Source: Methanoregula sp. (GTDB lineage: Archaea; Halobacteriota; Methanomicrobia; Methanomicrobiales; Methanospirillaceae). Taken from it: a stretch of 64,000 bases of DNA. Below the pieces are notes generated by a model. That model was not told the DNA's origin. It saw nothing but the letters and a program-made list of their open reading frames with translations, and made no database searches. A program made the translations under genes and the position numbers. Below, piece after piece: positions 2,508 to 26,940 of the stretch; the stretch's first letter is position 1; every line of letters starts with the position of its first letter. The DNA lies in contig NZ_JAJRCG010000002.1 in assembly GCF_028679125.1 (NCBI RefSeq), positions 186,001 to 250,000 of the forward strand, written 5' to 3'.

Positions 2508-2619
2508 TCGTATATTGCTGCTGCTCTTCACCATCGCTGGAATCGTGGTCGAAAACATGCGAAGCCGAGCTGGTCAATAGCAGAGAAAGCATATCTTGCC
2601 CCATTCAAGAGATGTACCT

Positions 2620-2961
2620 ATGACTGAAAAACGCGGGCTCCTTTACACCCTCGCCCTCTTCAAACAGCGCTATGCCCGGGGATCTTCCTGGACCCAGATC
2701 GTGCTAAACTTCGGTATCATCACCGCGAACGCGAAACTCTTTGAGGACTTCTTCCTCATCCATTTCGGGTTGAACCTTCCCGAGGTTATCGTCCTCTCGG
2801 TGCCCTGCTACATCATCATCTGTTATATCATCGGGCACTTCGATGAGAAGAGCGGGTTCTGGCAGATCGAGAATAACCTGAACTACCGTGTCGCGCCCTA
2901 CTCCGAAGAGATGCTGACAACGATACGTGAGATCAAGGATACCCTGAAGAAGAACGATTGA
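2620..2961 (+). CDS. Small membrane protein, unknown function
   Basis: The ATG at 2620 (MTEKRGLLYTL) is preferred over the TTG at 2596 in the ORF track, giving 113 residues. A basic N-terminal part is followed by a hydrophobic stretch at about residues 22-42 and a clear membrane helix (VIVLSVPCYIIICYIIGHF). The C-terminus is charged, ends in KDTLKKND and could form a helix on the cytoplasmic face. It lies 112 bases after the DUF2115 gene on the same strand. I do not recognise the family. Confidence 0.6.
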   Translation: MTEKRGLLYTLALFKQRYARGSSWTQIVLNFGIITANAKLFEDFFLIHFGLNLPEVIVLSVPCYIIICYIIGHFDEKSGFWQIENNLNYRVAPYSEEMLTTIREIKDTLKKND

Positions 2962-3045
2962 GCGATCTCCCCGTACATGCACGCGTCCAGAATCCCCGAA
3001 CCGGTAATGGAGGAAGATATGCGAAAAAGAGGATACTATTCTTTT

Positions 3046-3309
3046 TTAGTCCAGCGGGATGGTCTCCAGCTGCGACACGAGCTCCCAGATCCGGGTCCGC
3101 GCATGGATGGGCATATTGGGATCATTGGAAATTTCATCGATTTTCGAGATGGCTTCTGCGGCGCGCAGCCCCATTGCCTTGGTGTTGTTTTGGAGCAGCA
3201 CCCTTGTCTCATCGGCGACCCGCCGGATATTTCTCGGTATTGAACTGTCCTCCTGAATGTGCTGCAGCATCAGGATACAGTTTTCCATTGTTTTTTCTGC
3301 ATTTGCCAT
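3046..3309 (-). CDS. UPF0147 family protein
   Basis: Starting at MANAEKTM gives 87 residues, the usual length of this archaeal family of small helical proteins; the longer ORF adds 21 unlikely residues. Visible family features are the central [13 protein letters not shown] segment and the end [16 protein letters not shown]. The function is unknown, although the family is widely conserved in archaea. It is transcribed away from the zinc-binding p27-like gene, with only 78 bases between the two start codons, so the pair probably shares a promoter region. Confidence 0.85.
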
Positions 3310-3351
3310 GGTAGTGCCTACCTTGTACCTGTAGTTAATATGCGGAACCGG

Positions 3352-3370
3352 CATATATAGTTTAAATAAC
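3352..3370 (+). promoter_or_regulatory. TATA-like promoter between UPF0147 and p27-like genes
   Basis: The block CATATATAGTTTAAATAAC is the only AT-rich stretch in the 78-base divergent gap and ends 18 bases before the p27-like start. A GGTGA ribosome-binding motif lies at 3379-3383, four bases before that ATG. This fits a short-leader archaeal promoter. Which of the two TATA-like words is used cannot be told from sequence. Confidence 0.5.
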
Positions 3371-3387
3371 AATCAGACGGTGACCTG

Positions 3388-3840
3388 ATGACTTCACGAA
3401 AAGAAGACGAAATTATGGCTGAATGCCTCCTCAAGGGAGGAAAAATGCTCGAAAAGAGCTGCAAGACCTGCGGGTGCCCGCTCTTTGAAGTCAAGGGCAA
3501 GACACTCTGTATCGTCTGTGCAGAGAATGAAAATGCAAAGAAAGCGGCGGCGCCCGTTGCGCATGCACATGCCGGCCATGAACACGGCTGCGGGTGCGGG
3601 GAAGAGCACGGGACGCATCACCACGAACACGACGATGAGTGTGGATGCGGCGTGGATCACGATGAGGATACCTGCACCTGCGGCGACGAAGAGGGCGGGC
3701 TCCTTGCAGAAGAGATCGCAATGACGATCCACGCGCTCTGCGAGCGGATCCACAATGAGAAGGATCCGGAGAATGTCCTTGCCCTTATGCAAGCCGTGAA
3801 GGCCGGGACCGAGTCGCTCGAGATTCTGTGCAGGTTATAG
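3388..3840 (+). CDS. Autoantigen-p27 family zinc protein with His/Cys-rich insert
   Basis: The N-terminal 50 residues match the archaeal/eukaryotic Sjogren autoantigen p27 zinc-ribbon family: AECLLKGGKML, then CKTCGCPLFEVKGKTLCIVC with two CxxC pairs (Cys25/28 and Cys41/44). Residues 59-98 form an unusual acidic insert with ten histidines and six cysteines, including three CxC pairs at 68/70, 85/87 and 96/98. The C-terminal helix (MTIHALCERIHNEKDPENV) resembles a dimerisation or binding segment. The insert looks like a metal-binding tail as found in nickel or zinc chaperones; which metal is unknown. It has a good ribosome-binding site and is probably monocistronic. Confidence 0.8.
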   Translation: MTSRKEDEIMAECLLKGGKMLEKSCKTCGCPLFEVKGKTLCIVCAENENAKKAAAPVAHAHAGHEHGCGCGEEHGTHHHEHDDECGCGVDHDEDTCTCGDEEGGLLAEEIAMTIHALCERIHNEKDPENVLALMQAVKAGTESLEILCRL

Positions 3841-3995
3841 GGATATTCCCTGTACCCTTTTGCTTTTTTCCCGTTTCTTTAAAGTTCCCCGTTGTCGGTG
3901 ATTTCACCCGCAGGATTCCCGGTCCGGGCTACCGCCAGAGCGGGGATGGTTGCGGCAGGGCCCGGATTGCATCCGGTATCGCTGGTTTTTAATCC

Positions 3996-5249
3996 ATGAC
4001 CCCCGGAACTGACTTGTACATGCCCCTGGATCAGAACGTGACGGATGTGCGATCAAGGCCTGATCGTATCCTGGTGTTCTATCTCTCCCTGATCGGGTTC
4101 TTTGCGATCTTCTCGACCACCCTCTCGAAAAATCCCGTGCTCCCCCTCTTTGTCCAGGCACTTGGCGGCGGGGATACGCTTCTTGGTCTCATCGCTGCTG
4201 TTTCCCCGCTCGCCGGCATCCTGTTCTCTTTTCCTGTAGGTGTAATATCGGATCGCCTCGGGAGACGGCGCCTGCTGGTCATTGCCGGCCTGGTCTTCCT
4301 GACAGCACCCTTGTTGTATCTCCTCATCACCGACCCGCTCTGGCTGATCCCGATCCGGTTTTTCCACGGCACGGCCACTGCAATTCTCGGACCCGTTGTC
4401 TCCGCCATCATTGCCGAACGGTTCCCGGCAACAAAGGGCGAGATGCTCGGCAGGTATTCTTCTGCAACTCTCATCGGCCGGACACTCGCCCCTCTTGCGG
4501 GAGGTATCATCCTCTCGGTTTTCATGTTCATGCCCGGCCTTTTCCCGTACCGGATGGTATACATTGTCGCGGCTCTTGCTGCGGTTCCCGTAATGTACCT
4601 GATCCTCCGGTACCGCGAGGAGAAGCCCGGCTTGCTGGATCTCCCGGGTTTTTCGGTGTTCAAAGAGAGCCTCGTCACATTCGTTGCCAACCGGAGCCTG
4701 AGGGCGACCGCGATGGCTGACATGGCGACCTACTTTGCCTTCGGTGCCTTTGAGACCTTCCTGCCGGTCTATCTCTTCTCCCTTCACTTCGAAGCCTGGC
4801 AGATCGGCGTCATCTTTGCAGTCCAGGTTTTGATCATCGCCGCAACAAAGCCATTCTTTGGCAGGATCGCGGACCGTGTCGACAAACGTTACCAGATTAT
4901 TGTCGGTCTCCTCGTTACGGGAGGTTCGGTTGCTGCGGTCCCCGTTGTTACGGGCTTTGTGATGATTCTTGCCGTGAGTGCCGCGTTCGGGCTCGGGATG
5001 TCGTTGTCCACCGTGGCGACCAGCGCCTACATTGCCGATGTTGCAAAAAAAGAGGAGATCGGCGCCTCGATGGGAGCCCTCTCGGCCATCATGGATATCG
5101 GGCATTCGGCCGGGCCGCTCGTCACCGGTATCATCATTTCGCTTGCCGGTTATTCCTCGGGTTTCTTTGCAGGATTTGTGCTTGCTCTGGCAGCAGCCGG
5201 GATCTTTTTGGTGTCAGTGAAGGACCGGAGCGGGAAAATTATCGGTTAA
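3996..5249 (+). CDS. Major facilitator superfamily transporter
   Basis: The 417-residue protein has about twelve membrane helices. The classic MFS loop motif GVISDRLGRRRLL follows helix 2, and a related GRIADRVDKRYQI marks the second half, showing the usual two-fold repeat. Such proteins export or import small molecules using the proton gradient; close similarity to multidrug or sugar exporters cannot be resolved here. An alternative ATG at 4020 (MPLDQNVTD) would remove eight residues; neither start has an obvious ribosome-binding site. It is followed at once by the G-rich hairpin at 5255. Confidence 0.85.
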   Translation: MTPGTDLYMPLDQNVTDVRSRPDRILVFYLSLIGFFAIFSTTLSKNPVLPLFVQALGGGDTLLGLIAAVSPLAGILFSFPVGVISDRLGRRRLLVIAGLVFLTAPLLYLLITDPLWLIPIRFFHGTATAILGPVVSAIIAERFPATKGEMLGRYSSATLIGRTLAPLAGGIILSVFMFMPGLFPYRMVYIVAALAAVPVMYLILRYREEKPGLLDLPGFSVFKESLVTFVANRSLRATAMADMATYFAFGAFETFLPVYLFSLHFEAWQIGVIFAVQVLIIAATKPFFGRIADRVDKRYQIIVGLLVTGGSVAAVPVVTGFVMILAVSAAFGLGMSLSTVATSAYIADVAKKEEIGASMGALSAIMDIGHSAGPLVTGIIISLAGYSSGFFAGFVLALAAAGIFLVSVKDRSGKIIG

Positions 5250-23005: not shown

Positions 23006-23183
23006 ACACCTCTTCGATATTCACCTTGAAGAACTGTGATATCCGGAAGGCAAGATCCAGGGACGGGACGTACTTGCCCTTCTCGATGGCAAGGATCGTC
23101 TGTCGCGTGACCCCGATGGCCTGCGCCAGATCCTCCTGTGTCATGTCGTACATTGCACGGAATACCTTGATCTTATTCTTCAT
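22965..23183 (-). CDS. XRE-family HTH transcription regulator
   Basis: Starting at MKNKIKVFRAMYDMTQ gives 72 residues, the size of the small Cro/CI-type regulators. The helix-turn-helix reads MTQEDLAQAIGVTRQTILAIEKG and is followed by YVPSLDLAFRISQFFKVNIEEVF. Small regulators of this type are usually encoded with a DUF2178/DUF3796-like membrane protein, as here: the start codon overlaps the DUF2178 stop by 11 bases. It may repress its own operon or the divergent polyamine fusion gene. Confidence 0.9.
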   Translation of the reverse strand: MKNKIKVFRAMYDMTQEDLAQAIGVTRQTILAIEKGKYVPSLDLAFRISQFFKVNIEEVFTYDSETKTVDDR

Positions 23184-23619
23184 CGGTCTCCCAATCCCCA
23201 TATTTTCGGGCATAGTATATCCTGAATCCAACGTACAGGAAGATCATAAGACAGAGGAGCCCGAGCTGGAAGTACCCCATCATCTTCGGGGTGAACCCTT
23301 CCGGGGCGTGCGAGAGATCCACATCCTTTGGGAATTGTGGCACATAGAGGATCTTCATGACTGCCCCGACTGAGAATGCACACACCACAACCAGGAAAAC
23401 CTGAAATGTCCGCAGGACTGCCTGCTCGGTGATCTTTGCGCTCCGTTCATCGTCAATGAGGTCGGTCACGCGTCTTCGGGCAAGATATGCAACCGCAATG
23501 CCAATGATAAAGGTGATCTCGACGAAAAAAGGCCGGTGGATCTCAACAGAATACCAGAAGATCGCCAGAAGGATAACGGCGATACAGCCGCACAAGAGAT
23601 AAAAGGTATTTTTTTTCAT
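23173..23619 (-). CDS. DUF2178-like membrane protein
   Basis: The start MKKNTFYLLCG, preceded by AGAGG, gives 148 residues; the track start adds 37 unlikely residues. There are four membrane helices: LCGCIAVILLAIFWYS, FVEITFIIGIAVAYLA, FQVFLVVVCAFSVGAV and LGLLCLMIFLYVGF. The cytoplasmic loop contains TDLIDDERSAKITEQA, the conserved DER-x-x-x-I-x-x-x-A motif of DUF2178. Proteins of this family commonly accompany a small XRE regulator and may sense membrane state; that role is inferred. Confidence 0.8.
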   Translation of the reverse strand: MKKNTFYLLCGCIAVILLAIFWYSVEIHRPFFVEITFIIGIAVAYLARRRVTDLIDDERSAKITEQAVLRTFQVFLVVVCAFSVGAVMKILYVPQFPKDVDLSHAPEGFTPKMMGYFQLGLLCLMIFLYVGFRIYYARKYGDWETDEE

Positions 23620-23795: not shown

Positions 23796-25721
23796 ATGGA
23801 TCTGGGAGACGTAGCGGTAGGGCTTATCCAGATGGCGATGGGTCCCGATCCAGACGAGAATATCAAAAAGGCATGCCGTAATGCAGAGGCCGCTGCCCGC
23901 GATGGTGCGCAGATCATCTGCCTTCCTGAACTCTATTATACCCGGTATTTTCCGCAGCATCCGGGAACGGATGCATCGCCGCTTGCCGAGAGTATCCCGG
24001 GACGGTCGACCGGTATCTTCTCTGCCTTTGCCCGTGAACACCAGGTTGTCATCATCGTTCCGGTCTTTGAACGGGCAGCCGACGGGAAGTATTACAACGC
24101 GGCGGTGGTCATTGACGCGGATGGAAGCATATCAGAGCCGTACCGGAAAGTCCATATCCCGCAGGATCCGGGTTTCTTTGAGAAGGGCTATTTCTATCCG
24201 GGAAATGGTTACAGGGTCTTTTCCACACGCTACGGGCGCATCGCGGTCCTGATCTGCTTTGACCAGTGGTTCCCAGAGGCCGCACGGTGCGTAGCCCTTG
24301 ACGGCGCAGAGATCCTCTTCTACCCTACGGCCATCGGACACCCGGGACCAGTCGAACCGGAAGAAGGCAACTGGCAGGATGCATGGGAACTGATCCAGCG
24401 GAGCCATGCCATTGCAAACAGTGTCCATGTCGCAGCGGTGAACCGGGCGGGAACCGAGGGAACTACCCGTTTCTTCGGGGGATCGTTTGTTGCGGATGCG
24501 TTCGGCAAGGTGCTGGCACGGGCCGGTGATGGCGAGGAGACCCTGATTGTCAAGGTTGACCTGTCCATGAACGCTGACGTGCAGGACTTCTGGGGATTCT
24601 TCCGGAACCGTCGCCCGGAAACCTATTCCCGTATTGGCGTTCCGTTCCCGGGCAACAATGGGATCTTTCCGGATCTCCGCCAGGGTGACACCCCCCGCAA
24701 CCGGGGATTCCACATGCCGGCGGAATGGGAGCCGCACGAGGCCGTCTGGATCTCATGGCCCAATAATGCCCGGACCTTCCCGGATATTCCCGGGGTTGAG
24801 CAGGCATATTACGCGTTCATAGAGCACATTCACACCTCCGAACACGTGGAGGTCTTTGTCCCCAGTGCGGTCATCCACCGCAAGGTGCGATCAAAACTGC
24901 GGGAGATGGGCGTTGATCTCGAACGGGTGACGCTTCACACCAATGAGTATTCCGATGTCTGGATCAGGGACTATGGCCCGACGTTCGTAGTCAGTCGTGC
25001 CCTCAAGAAGATTGCCATGGTGCGCTGGAATTTCAATGCATGGGGCAACAAGTATGAAGACCAGCTCCGTGATGGGAAGATCCCCGCAATGATGAACCGC
25101 CGGCTCAATATGCCGATGTTCGAGCCGGGGATTGTCCTGGAAGGCGGATCGATCGATACCAATGGCAGGGGAACGGTGCTGACGACCCGGGCCTGCCTCC
25201 TCAATCCCAACCGCAACCCCGACCTGTCCGCTGACGAGATTGAGGAACGGCTTCGTGAATATCTCGGGATTGAAAAGGTCATATGGCTGAATGACGGGGT
25301 GGTAGGTGATGATACCGACGGGCATGTCGATGACATTGCCCGTTTTGTCGGCCCCTCGACGGTTGTATGTGGCTACGAGAGCGATATTACGGATGCCAAT
25401 TACTCCGCCCTTCATGACAATTACGAGATCCTCCGCCAGTCAGCCGATCAGGAGGGGAAGCCCCTTACGGTGGTGAAGCTGCCGATGCCCGGGAAAGTCG
25501 TGGATAATGACGGGGAACGCTACCCGGCCAGTTACACGAACTTCTATATCGGCAATACTATTGTCATCGTCCCGGTCTTTTCCGATCCCAACGATAGTGT
25601 TGCCCTGGAGATCCTGGAGGGGCTCTTCCCCGGTCGTACGGTTGTCGGCATCAATGCCCGGGCACTGGTCGAGGGATATGGCACCTTCCACTGCGCCACC
25701 CAGCAGCAGCCTCGCCTGTAA
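23796..25721 (+). CDS. Fused N-carbamoylputrescine amidase / agmatine deiminase
   Basis: The 641-residue protein joins two consecutive enzymes of putrescine synthesis. Residues about 5-285 are a nitrilase-fold amidase with the triad Glu45 (LPELYY), Lys118 (YRKVHIPQDPG) and Cys154 (ICFDQWFPEAAR), matching N-carbamoylputrescine amidase. From about 303 (GFHMPAEWEPHEAVWISWP) to the end is agmatine deiminase, with DVWIRDYGPTFV, GDDTDGHVDDIARF and the nucleophile Cys633 in GTFHCATQQQ. The C-terminal half converts agmatine to N-carbamoylputrescine and ammonia; the N-terminal half releases putrescine, carbon dioxide and ammonia. No stop or frameshift separates the halves. GAGGTG precedes the ATG. Usually these are two genes. 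Confidence 0.93.
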   Translation: MDLGDVAVGLIQMAMGPDPDENIKKACRNAEAAARDGAQIICLPELYYTRYFPQHPGTDASPLAESIPGRSTGIFSAFAREHQVVIIVPVFERAADGKYYNAAVVIDADGSISEPYRKVHIPQDPGFFEKGYFYPGNGYRVFSTRYGRIAVLICFDQWFPEAARCVALDGAEILFYPTAIGHPGPVEPEEGNWQDAWELIQRSHAIANSVHVAAVNRAGTEGTTRFFGGSFVADAFGKVLARAGDGEETLIVKVDLSMNADVQDFWGFFRNRRPETYSRIGVPFPGNNGIFPDLRQGDTPRNRGFHMPAEWEPHEAVWISWPNNARTFPDIPGVEQAYYAFIEHIHTSEHVEVFVPSAVIHRKVRSKLREMGVDLERVTLHTNEYSDVWIRDYGPTFVVSRALKKIAMVRWNFNAWGNKYEDQLRDGKIPAMMNRRLNMPMFEPGIVLEGGSIDTNGRGTVLTTRACLLNPNRNPDLSADEIEERLREYLGIEKVIWLNDGVVGDDTDGHVDDIARFVGPSTVVCGYESDITDANYSALHDNYEILRQSADQEGKPLTVVKLPMPGKVVDNDGERYPASYTNFYIGNTIVIVPVFSDPNDSVALEILEGLFPGRTVVGINARALVEGYGTFHCATQQQPRL

Positions 25722-25807: not shown

Positions 25808-26773
25808 TCAATTCCCTTTTGCGGGTGATGCAGGGGTGTGGGGAGTTTCCCCCCTTACAGGATGATCTGTCGGGACAATACTGACAGAACTTTTGGGAAT
25901 TGTCTGCTCAAGGGATGCCTTGATCCGGTTGATGCTCTCCTGGACTTCAGACATCTTCCGGTTCCCCTCGAATTCGAGGAAGATCTCGATGTACACGTTG
26001 GCGCCGGACCTGCGTGAACGCACACCGTAGAGGGCAGTATAATCATCAAAGAACTCAGCAAGATGGCAGACGATCACCATCTGGAGTTCCTCGTCGAGTG
26101 TTTTATCGAGAAGATCCGGGAGGGATGTGGTGATGACCCGGTATCCCGACGTGAGCAGGAAACCGGCGATGACAAAGGATGCGAGCGGATCGATATACAG
26201 GGACCAGGCATAGTGGGAGAAGGCAAGCGTTGCTATCAGGGAAAGAAGGACCGAGAGATCGGAGAATGCCTTGGTCCGGAAGAGCCGCCACTGGGAGTCG
26301 ATGATCGGTGATGGCGATTTCTGGAACAACCGGTAATTCTTCCTCCACAGCCAGCTGTTCATGCAGACCCCGATCGTCATGAGCACGACACCGAGGTATG
26401 CCCCCTCCAGAACCAGTTCCTCCGGAGTGACGAGCTTGTTGATCGCAACAAAAAAGACCAGTGCCAGGGAGATGAACATCACGCCACCTGTGACGATGGA
26501 CGTGATGGTCTCGAATTTTCCCAGACCGTAATCATAGGCCCCGCACCCTCCTTTTGCCATTTTGCGCAGCGTGAGGTATGCAAAGAAGGTTGCCAGAATC
26601 TCGTTGGCACATTTCAGTGCATCTGCGAAAAGAACAATGGACCCTGAGAGCATTGCCGCAGCGATATCGGGAATCCAGAGAACAAAATCGACGATCAGGC
26701 TGGTGAGGACCGTCTGCTGCTTTGTGGCAATGGATACTCCGCAACTATCGTCTGCCGGACCTGCATGAGACAT
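25808..26773 (-). CDS. Cation diffusion facilitator-like transporter
   Basis: ATG 26773 (MSHAGPADDSCGVS) gives 321 residues; ATG 26794 is also possible. Six membrane helices and a C-terminal cytoplasmic domain (VYIEIFLEFEGNRKMSEVQ) follow the CDF layout. In the usual metal site, helices 2 and 5 carry DxxxD and HxxxD; here they read FADALKCANE and RTKAFSDLS, so only part of the canonical set is present. It may transport another ion or have altered specificity. It is divergent from the unknown gene at 26941. Confidence 0.75.
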   Translation of the reverse strand: MSHAGPADDSCGVSIATKQQTVLTSLIVDFVLWIPDIAAAMLSGSIVLFADALKCANEILATFFAYLTLRKMAKGGCGAYDYGLGKFETITSIVTGGVMFISLALVFFVAINKLVTPEELVLEGAYLGVVLMTIGVCMNSWLWRKNYRLFQKSPSPIIDSQWRLFRTKAFSDLSVLLSLIATLAFSHYAWSLYIDPLASFVIAGFLLTSGYRVITTSLPDLLDKTLDEELQMVIVCHLAEFFDDYTALYGVRSRRSGANVYIEIFLEFEGNRKMSEVQESINRIKASLEQTIPKSSVSIVPTDHPVRGETPHTPASPAKGN

Positions 26774-26940
26774 TGAGTGGTATATTCTCGGCATTTTCAG
26801 ATAAAAACCGCTGTTTTGTATCTGCCGTATCAGTCCTGCCAGGGTGCGGTGAAATGCATTTATGGAAAAACCACCAAAATGTATTACTTCAGCCGGTTTT
26901 CCCGTATCCGGCTACCCCGACGACACATAAGGGATCTATT

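Follow-up and report, generated by a model that had tools for sequence, protein, structure and literature searches.

Does a single archaeal reading frame encode both enzymes that lead from agmatine to putrescine, and, if so, what has been gained by joining them? This question is raised by a gene in the 64,000-nucleotide stretch of Methanoregula DNA analysed here (the window). The fusion is real, and its building blocks and the pathway are already known. We consider it very probable that the product is a bifunctional agmatine-to-putrescine enzyme, which arose by the fusion of tandem genes and has its two halves flexibly tethered, with no sealed channel between them.

The fused gene and its distribution

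The fused aguB-aguA gene (23796-25721, plus strand) starts with ATG and runs through 641 amino acids with no internal stop, an N-carbamoylputrescine amidase-like (AguB-like) domain being followed by an agmatine deiminase-like (AguA-like) domain. Both Pfam domains were matched, which confirmed the sequence-only reading that two enzymes share one frame. The upstream neighbour, a DUF2178 membrane protein outside the present finding, is divergent (23173-23616, minus strand) and the downstream one, a cation efflux (PF01545) protein, is convergent (25808-26794, minus strand), thus the fused gene stands alone here, and no polyamine operon context was found around it within the window. The flanks of three other fused loci carry radical SAM, NRDD, hydantoinase-like and methyltransferase genes.

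Nearly all sampled Methanoregula genomes have the fusion. The full-length frame is intact in at least 25 other genomes of the genus, at 64-76% identity, and also in four more Methanomicrobiales families (53-59% identity), single-contig genomes included, therefore a frameshift or missed stop between the halves in this assembly, the outcome that had been named as fatal to the original reading, is excluded. The proposed database search for the same two-domain order mapped the fusion across Methanomicrobiales and Methanotrichaceae: in a sample of 394 genomes of the phylum the fusion was restricted to Methanomicrobiales and one further, Methanotrichaceae-like family (f22), and in named records it was seen in Methanoregula, Methanolinea, Methanoculleus, Methanothrix and Bathycorpusculum. 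Fused proteins of such a kind must surely show up in domain databases. Strong purifying selection acts on both halves, with a dN/dS of about 0.12 in each when the window gene is compared with its sister in the tree (G033). The statement that the two enzymes are normally encoded by separate genes is correct for bacteria but not for this archaeal lineage, in which fusion is the rule.

The two active sites

The N-terminal half matches Pfam CN_hydrolase over residues 8-258 (E 1.6e-60; nitrilase core at 23817-24569, plus strand), and in sequence comparison with solved structures it is related to the Medicago N-carbamoylputrescine amidohydrolase (MtCPA or NCPAH; 5h8i, E 1e-56) and also to a Helicobacter nitrilase. 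Residue assignments for both active sites were taken from PMC4812014 and PMC6447857. According to the alignment, E48, K121 and C158 of MtCPA, together with E132, correspond to E45, K118 and C154 with E129 in the fused protein, so the Glu-Lys-Cys triad and the second Glu expected of AguB are all there. E45 and K118 are invariant in 43 archaeal homologues, E129 is replaced by Asp once and C154 is lost once. Q157 and W158 are likewise retained, as is W266 of the segment equivalent to the swapped C-terminal tail of NCPAH (residues 266-277, WGFFRNRRPETY; 24591-24626, plus strand). W266 is aligned with W277 of MtCPA and is present in 43/43 archaeal homologues; in MtCPA this tail is swapped between subunits and lines the pocket of the partner, W277 reaching into the active site of the partner subunit (PMC4812014). 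For Glu187, with which MtCPA binds the amine, the alignment shows no strict counterpart: the loop is longer in the fused protein and a proline stands at the aligned position. The acidic E190, kept in 42 of the 43 archaeal sequences and absent from the one without C154, is only a candidate for this role.

The C-terminal half matches Pfam PAD_porph (PF04371, a pentein family) over residues 306-639 (E 5e-120; 24711-25712, plus strand), and the solved agmatine deiminases 6nib, 2jer and 3h7c were found by sequence comparison at E values of about 1e-64 to 1e-67. In the alignment with the Medicago deiminase (MtAIH), C366, H224, D226, D94, D220, D89 and W91 correspond to C633, H510, D512, D392, D506, D387 and W389, in other words the catalytic Cys, His and Asp and the guanidine- and amine-binding acids expected of an agmatine deiminase are all there. 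D387, W389, D392, H510, D512 and C633 are invariant in the 43 archaeal homologues and D506 is changed to Glu once. The proposal that both active sites are intact (Glu45/Lys118/Cys154 and Cys633) is thus upheld in the sense that these residues are present and aligned with Medicago NCPAH and AIH.

We infer both activities, as well as their direction. The protein would be a cytoplasmic bifunctional enzyme converting agmatine to putrescine: in the C-terminal pentein domain agmatine would form a covalent adduct with Cys633 and lose its imino group as ammonia, yielding N-carbamoylputrescine. The N-terminal nitrilase domain would hydrolyse this product at Cys154, aided by Glu45, Lys118 and Glu129, and so release putrescine together with CO2 and ammonia.

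Exchange with agmatinase

Agmatinase (SpeB, PF00491) performs the same net conversion with an unrelated fold, in one step and with the release of urea, and it is present in the sampled Methanomicrobiales without the fused enzyme. In a comparison of 52 Methanomicrobiales genomes, where the gene was counted whether fused or tandem, PF00491 was found in 20/20 genomes lacking the gene versus 11/32 having it (Fisher p = 8.9e-7, a test which ignores relatedness). For the PF00491 type scoring 221-250 bits the difference was sharper, 20/20 versus 5/32, all five in the Methanoculleus-type family f5 (p = 4e-10, relatedness again ignored). A second PF00491 type, scoring about 300 bits, passes NCBI's agmatinase model and for this reason is not to be dismissed. 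The exchange between the gene and agmatinase recurs within the window's own family (f1), within f2 and within genus g4, so it does not go back to one old event.

The pyruvoyl arginine decarboxylase PdaD (PF01862) was detected in 49/56 genomes of relatives, and the fused gene is the sole PAD_porph gene found in its own genome. On the basis of the distribution against agmatinase, the arginine decarboxylases of the relatives and this sole PAD_porph gene, the fused protein can be read as the agmatine-to-putrescine enzyme of the organism, and in most Methanomicrobiales carriers it would do the job of agmatinase. The assignment given in the sequence-only reading is hence backed by the conserved substrate-binding residues and by the complementary distribution.

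Some observations on the neighbouring steps should be added. The genome to which the window belongs (G000, 94% complete) yielded no arginine decarboxylase; PF01862 occurs in all seven other tested Methanoregula members and is missing in G000, which could be an assembly gap. In an f22 genome without PdaD (G315) a speA-type arginine decarboxylase gene stands divergently beside a deoxyhypusine synthase-family gene (locus L143, 1233-2276 on the minus and 2529-4469 on the plus strand). Separate PAD_porph frames occur in some relatives which have agmatinase and lack the fused gene; in G036, G041 and G058 a separate, diverged PAD_porph protein is encoded by frames of 452-465 amino acids with extra internal sequence.

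It is unlikely that the substrates are a guanidino compound other than agmatine, such as a longer aminoalkyl guanidine, and the carbamoyl product derived from it. Neither half reaches its NCBIfam equivalog cut-off, with 294.2 bits for AguA (TIGR03380, cut-off 381.8) and 268 bits for AguB (TIGR03381, cut-off 410.25), where an equivalog cut-off is the naming threshold of a curator and not a functional test; the tandem relatives of Opitutia fail too, and the Azotobacter AguA and AguB pass. In addition, the amine-side loop of the amidase is remodelled, and Tyr628 stands in the place of Gly361 of the plant AIH, a glycine which is said to leave space for ammonia and water (PMC6447857). Against another substrate, all agmatine-binding residues of the plant AIH (D89, W91, D94, D220, H224, D226) are conserved, and the gene and the agmatinase-type proteins are distributed nearly exclusively of each other over most of the order. 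Agmatine remains the substrate that we favour.

Origin of the fusion and the order of the domains

Separate AguA and AguB, as known from plants, Pseudomonas and many bacteria, belong to the same families, have the same catalytic residues and inferred reactions, and share the tandem order of the operon; they are two proteins, whereas the window gene encodes one polypeptide, and its sequence belongs to a distinct clade with scores below the NCBIfam equivalog cut-offs. Outside these archaea aguB and aguA are separate neighbours, and aguB comes first in nearly all sampled loci; the opposite order, with aguA first, was met in Paenibacillus and Prevotella. In bacteria and other archaea the neighbours often lie in the same frame, parted by one stop codon. 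The open reading frames were checked at 80 named genome loci, the scan was confined to loci showing either of two peptide patterns, and its ranking favours same-frame genes, hence the arrangement of one frame with one stop is over-represented. All ORF-checked bacterial, DPANN and Thermoplasmata loci had separate genes and no fusion. Plasmid records of Vibrio, Photobacterium and Ensifer, which appeared full length in one tblastn piece and were considered as bacterial fusions, also proved to hold separate genes.

The fusion very probably originated when tandem aguB and aguA lost the stop codon and the short spacer that parted them, an event that would have fixed the order of the domains. The N-terminal position of the amidase, which acts second, had been regarded as an oddity; this was not upheld, since the order copies that of the aguB-aguA operon, from which it was inherited.

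In the tree of the joined halves three state changes are required. Genus g16 of family f1 is nested among the fused genera of that family. The simplest reading of the tree is two fusions, one in the methanogens and one in Bathycorpusculum, and one re-splitting in g16. A single origin of all fusions was weakly rejected (AU p = 0.034) and a tree without the g16 fission was not rejected (AU p = 0.066). At the g16 loci (L030-L033) the two genes are separate and meet at a stop-start junction, for example GGGAGGGAGTGATTCATG.

Two sister genomes of f5 deserve separate mention: in G039 (L022) and G044 (L059) Cys154 is changed to Ser and the acidic residue 190 is lost, and G039 has an agmatinase-type gene as well. 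For this pair dN/dS is 0.18 in the N-terminal half versus 0.11 in the C-terminal half, the former being still constrained. Judged from these substitutions, the pair suggests that the amidase activity may be dispensable while the fusion persists.

The linker and a possible hand-over of the intermediate

Between the tail segment and the deiminase stands an inter-domain linker (residues 278-306; 24627-24713, plus strand), which varies among the homologues both in sequence and in length (19-43 amino acids). In a predicted model of the 641-residue monomer both domains have high confidence (mean pLDDT 83.7). The C-terminal half superimposes on the agmatine deiminases 2jer and 6nic with a TM score of 0.83-0.87 by target, the N-terminal half on MtCPA with about 0.82. 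The pLDDT is below 50 over residues 269-294, and with the pTM of 0.58 this means that no fixed domain arrangement is predicted, the model being that of the monomer only.

It had been suggested that the fusion could channel N-carbamoylputrescine. A true channel might be formed if the tail-swapped nitrilase dimer set the deiminase over the amidase pocket of the partner, where the intermediate would be handed over. The one structural argument for such an arrangement is the tail swap of MtCPA, W266 in the equivalent of the swapped tail being invariant and about 40 residues ahead of the deiminase; the evolution of the fusion at least twice in the simplest reading of the tree also speaks for it. The linker, however, is unconserved and of low confidence in the monomer model, g16 keeps the genes separate in spite of its nesting among fused forms, two Methanoculleus-type genomes have a dead-looking amidase, and in bacteria the intermediate moves between separate enzymes (PMC12283126). 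Taken together, channelling is unsupported and we give it a small chance. Our partial literature search found no paper on N-carbamoylputrescine channelling beyond a plant review. A broader picture, in which a recurrent fused enzyme, exchanged with agmatinase several times in either direction within one order, keeps each deiminase beside the amidase pocket of the partner subunit by means of the swapped tail, so that N-carbamoylputrescine would be handed over efficiently in the oligomer, is comparably doubtful as a whole. For the flexibly tethered enzyme that we prefer, the likely gain would be 1:1 expression and co-localisation rather than a sealed channel.

A peptidyl-arginine deiminase joined to an unrelated amidase is very improbable. 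The C-terminal half does match Pfam PAD_porph, and its closest solved relative and top PDB match, the Chlorobium tepidum protein 1xkn (E 5e-101; 46% identity when the folds were compared), bears the title putative peptidyl-arginine deiminase; 1xkn has the G-x-G-x-x-H-C motif in common with it and is a stand-alone protein, whereas the window protein is fused. The P. gingivalis PPAD structures, however, matched only at E 2.7e-7, in contrast with 1e-49 to 1e-67 for agmatine deiminases, which makes the Pfam name misleading here, and the deiminase sits after an intracellular-type nitrilase domain with no space ahead for a secretion signal.

An artefact of assembly or sequencing joining two tandem genes, which a single error could produce since one stop codon alone parts the frames in many relatives, has a negligible probability in view of the clade-specific linker and of the full-length fusion in so many other genomes.

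Relation to known systems and significance

Our literature search, which was partial, found no description of the wide presence of this fusion in Methanomicrobiales or of its exchange with agmatinase, and no paper linking agmatine deiminase with Methanoregula. A fused aguA-aguB gene is mentioned for a Ca. Diapherotrites archaeon in a single clause of a 2023 JBC article (PMC10407285); the same two genes are joined there, also in an archaeon, and the gene is clustered with speDA and speY, whereas the window gene stands alone.

For annotation, the result means that the NCBIfam equivalog cut-offs exclude this archaeal clade. The tandem genes, the two fusions, the one re-splitting and the two decayed amidase halves offer a natural series in which the effects of fusion on a two-step pathway can be tested. 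For many Methanomicrobiales and Methanothrix, a probable route to putrescine without agmatinase has been filled in.
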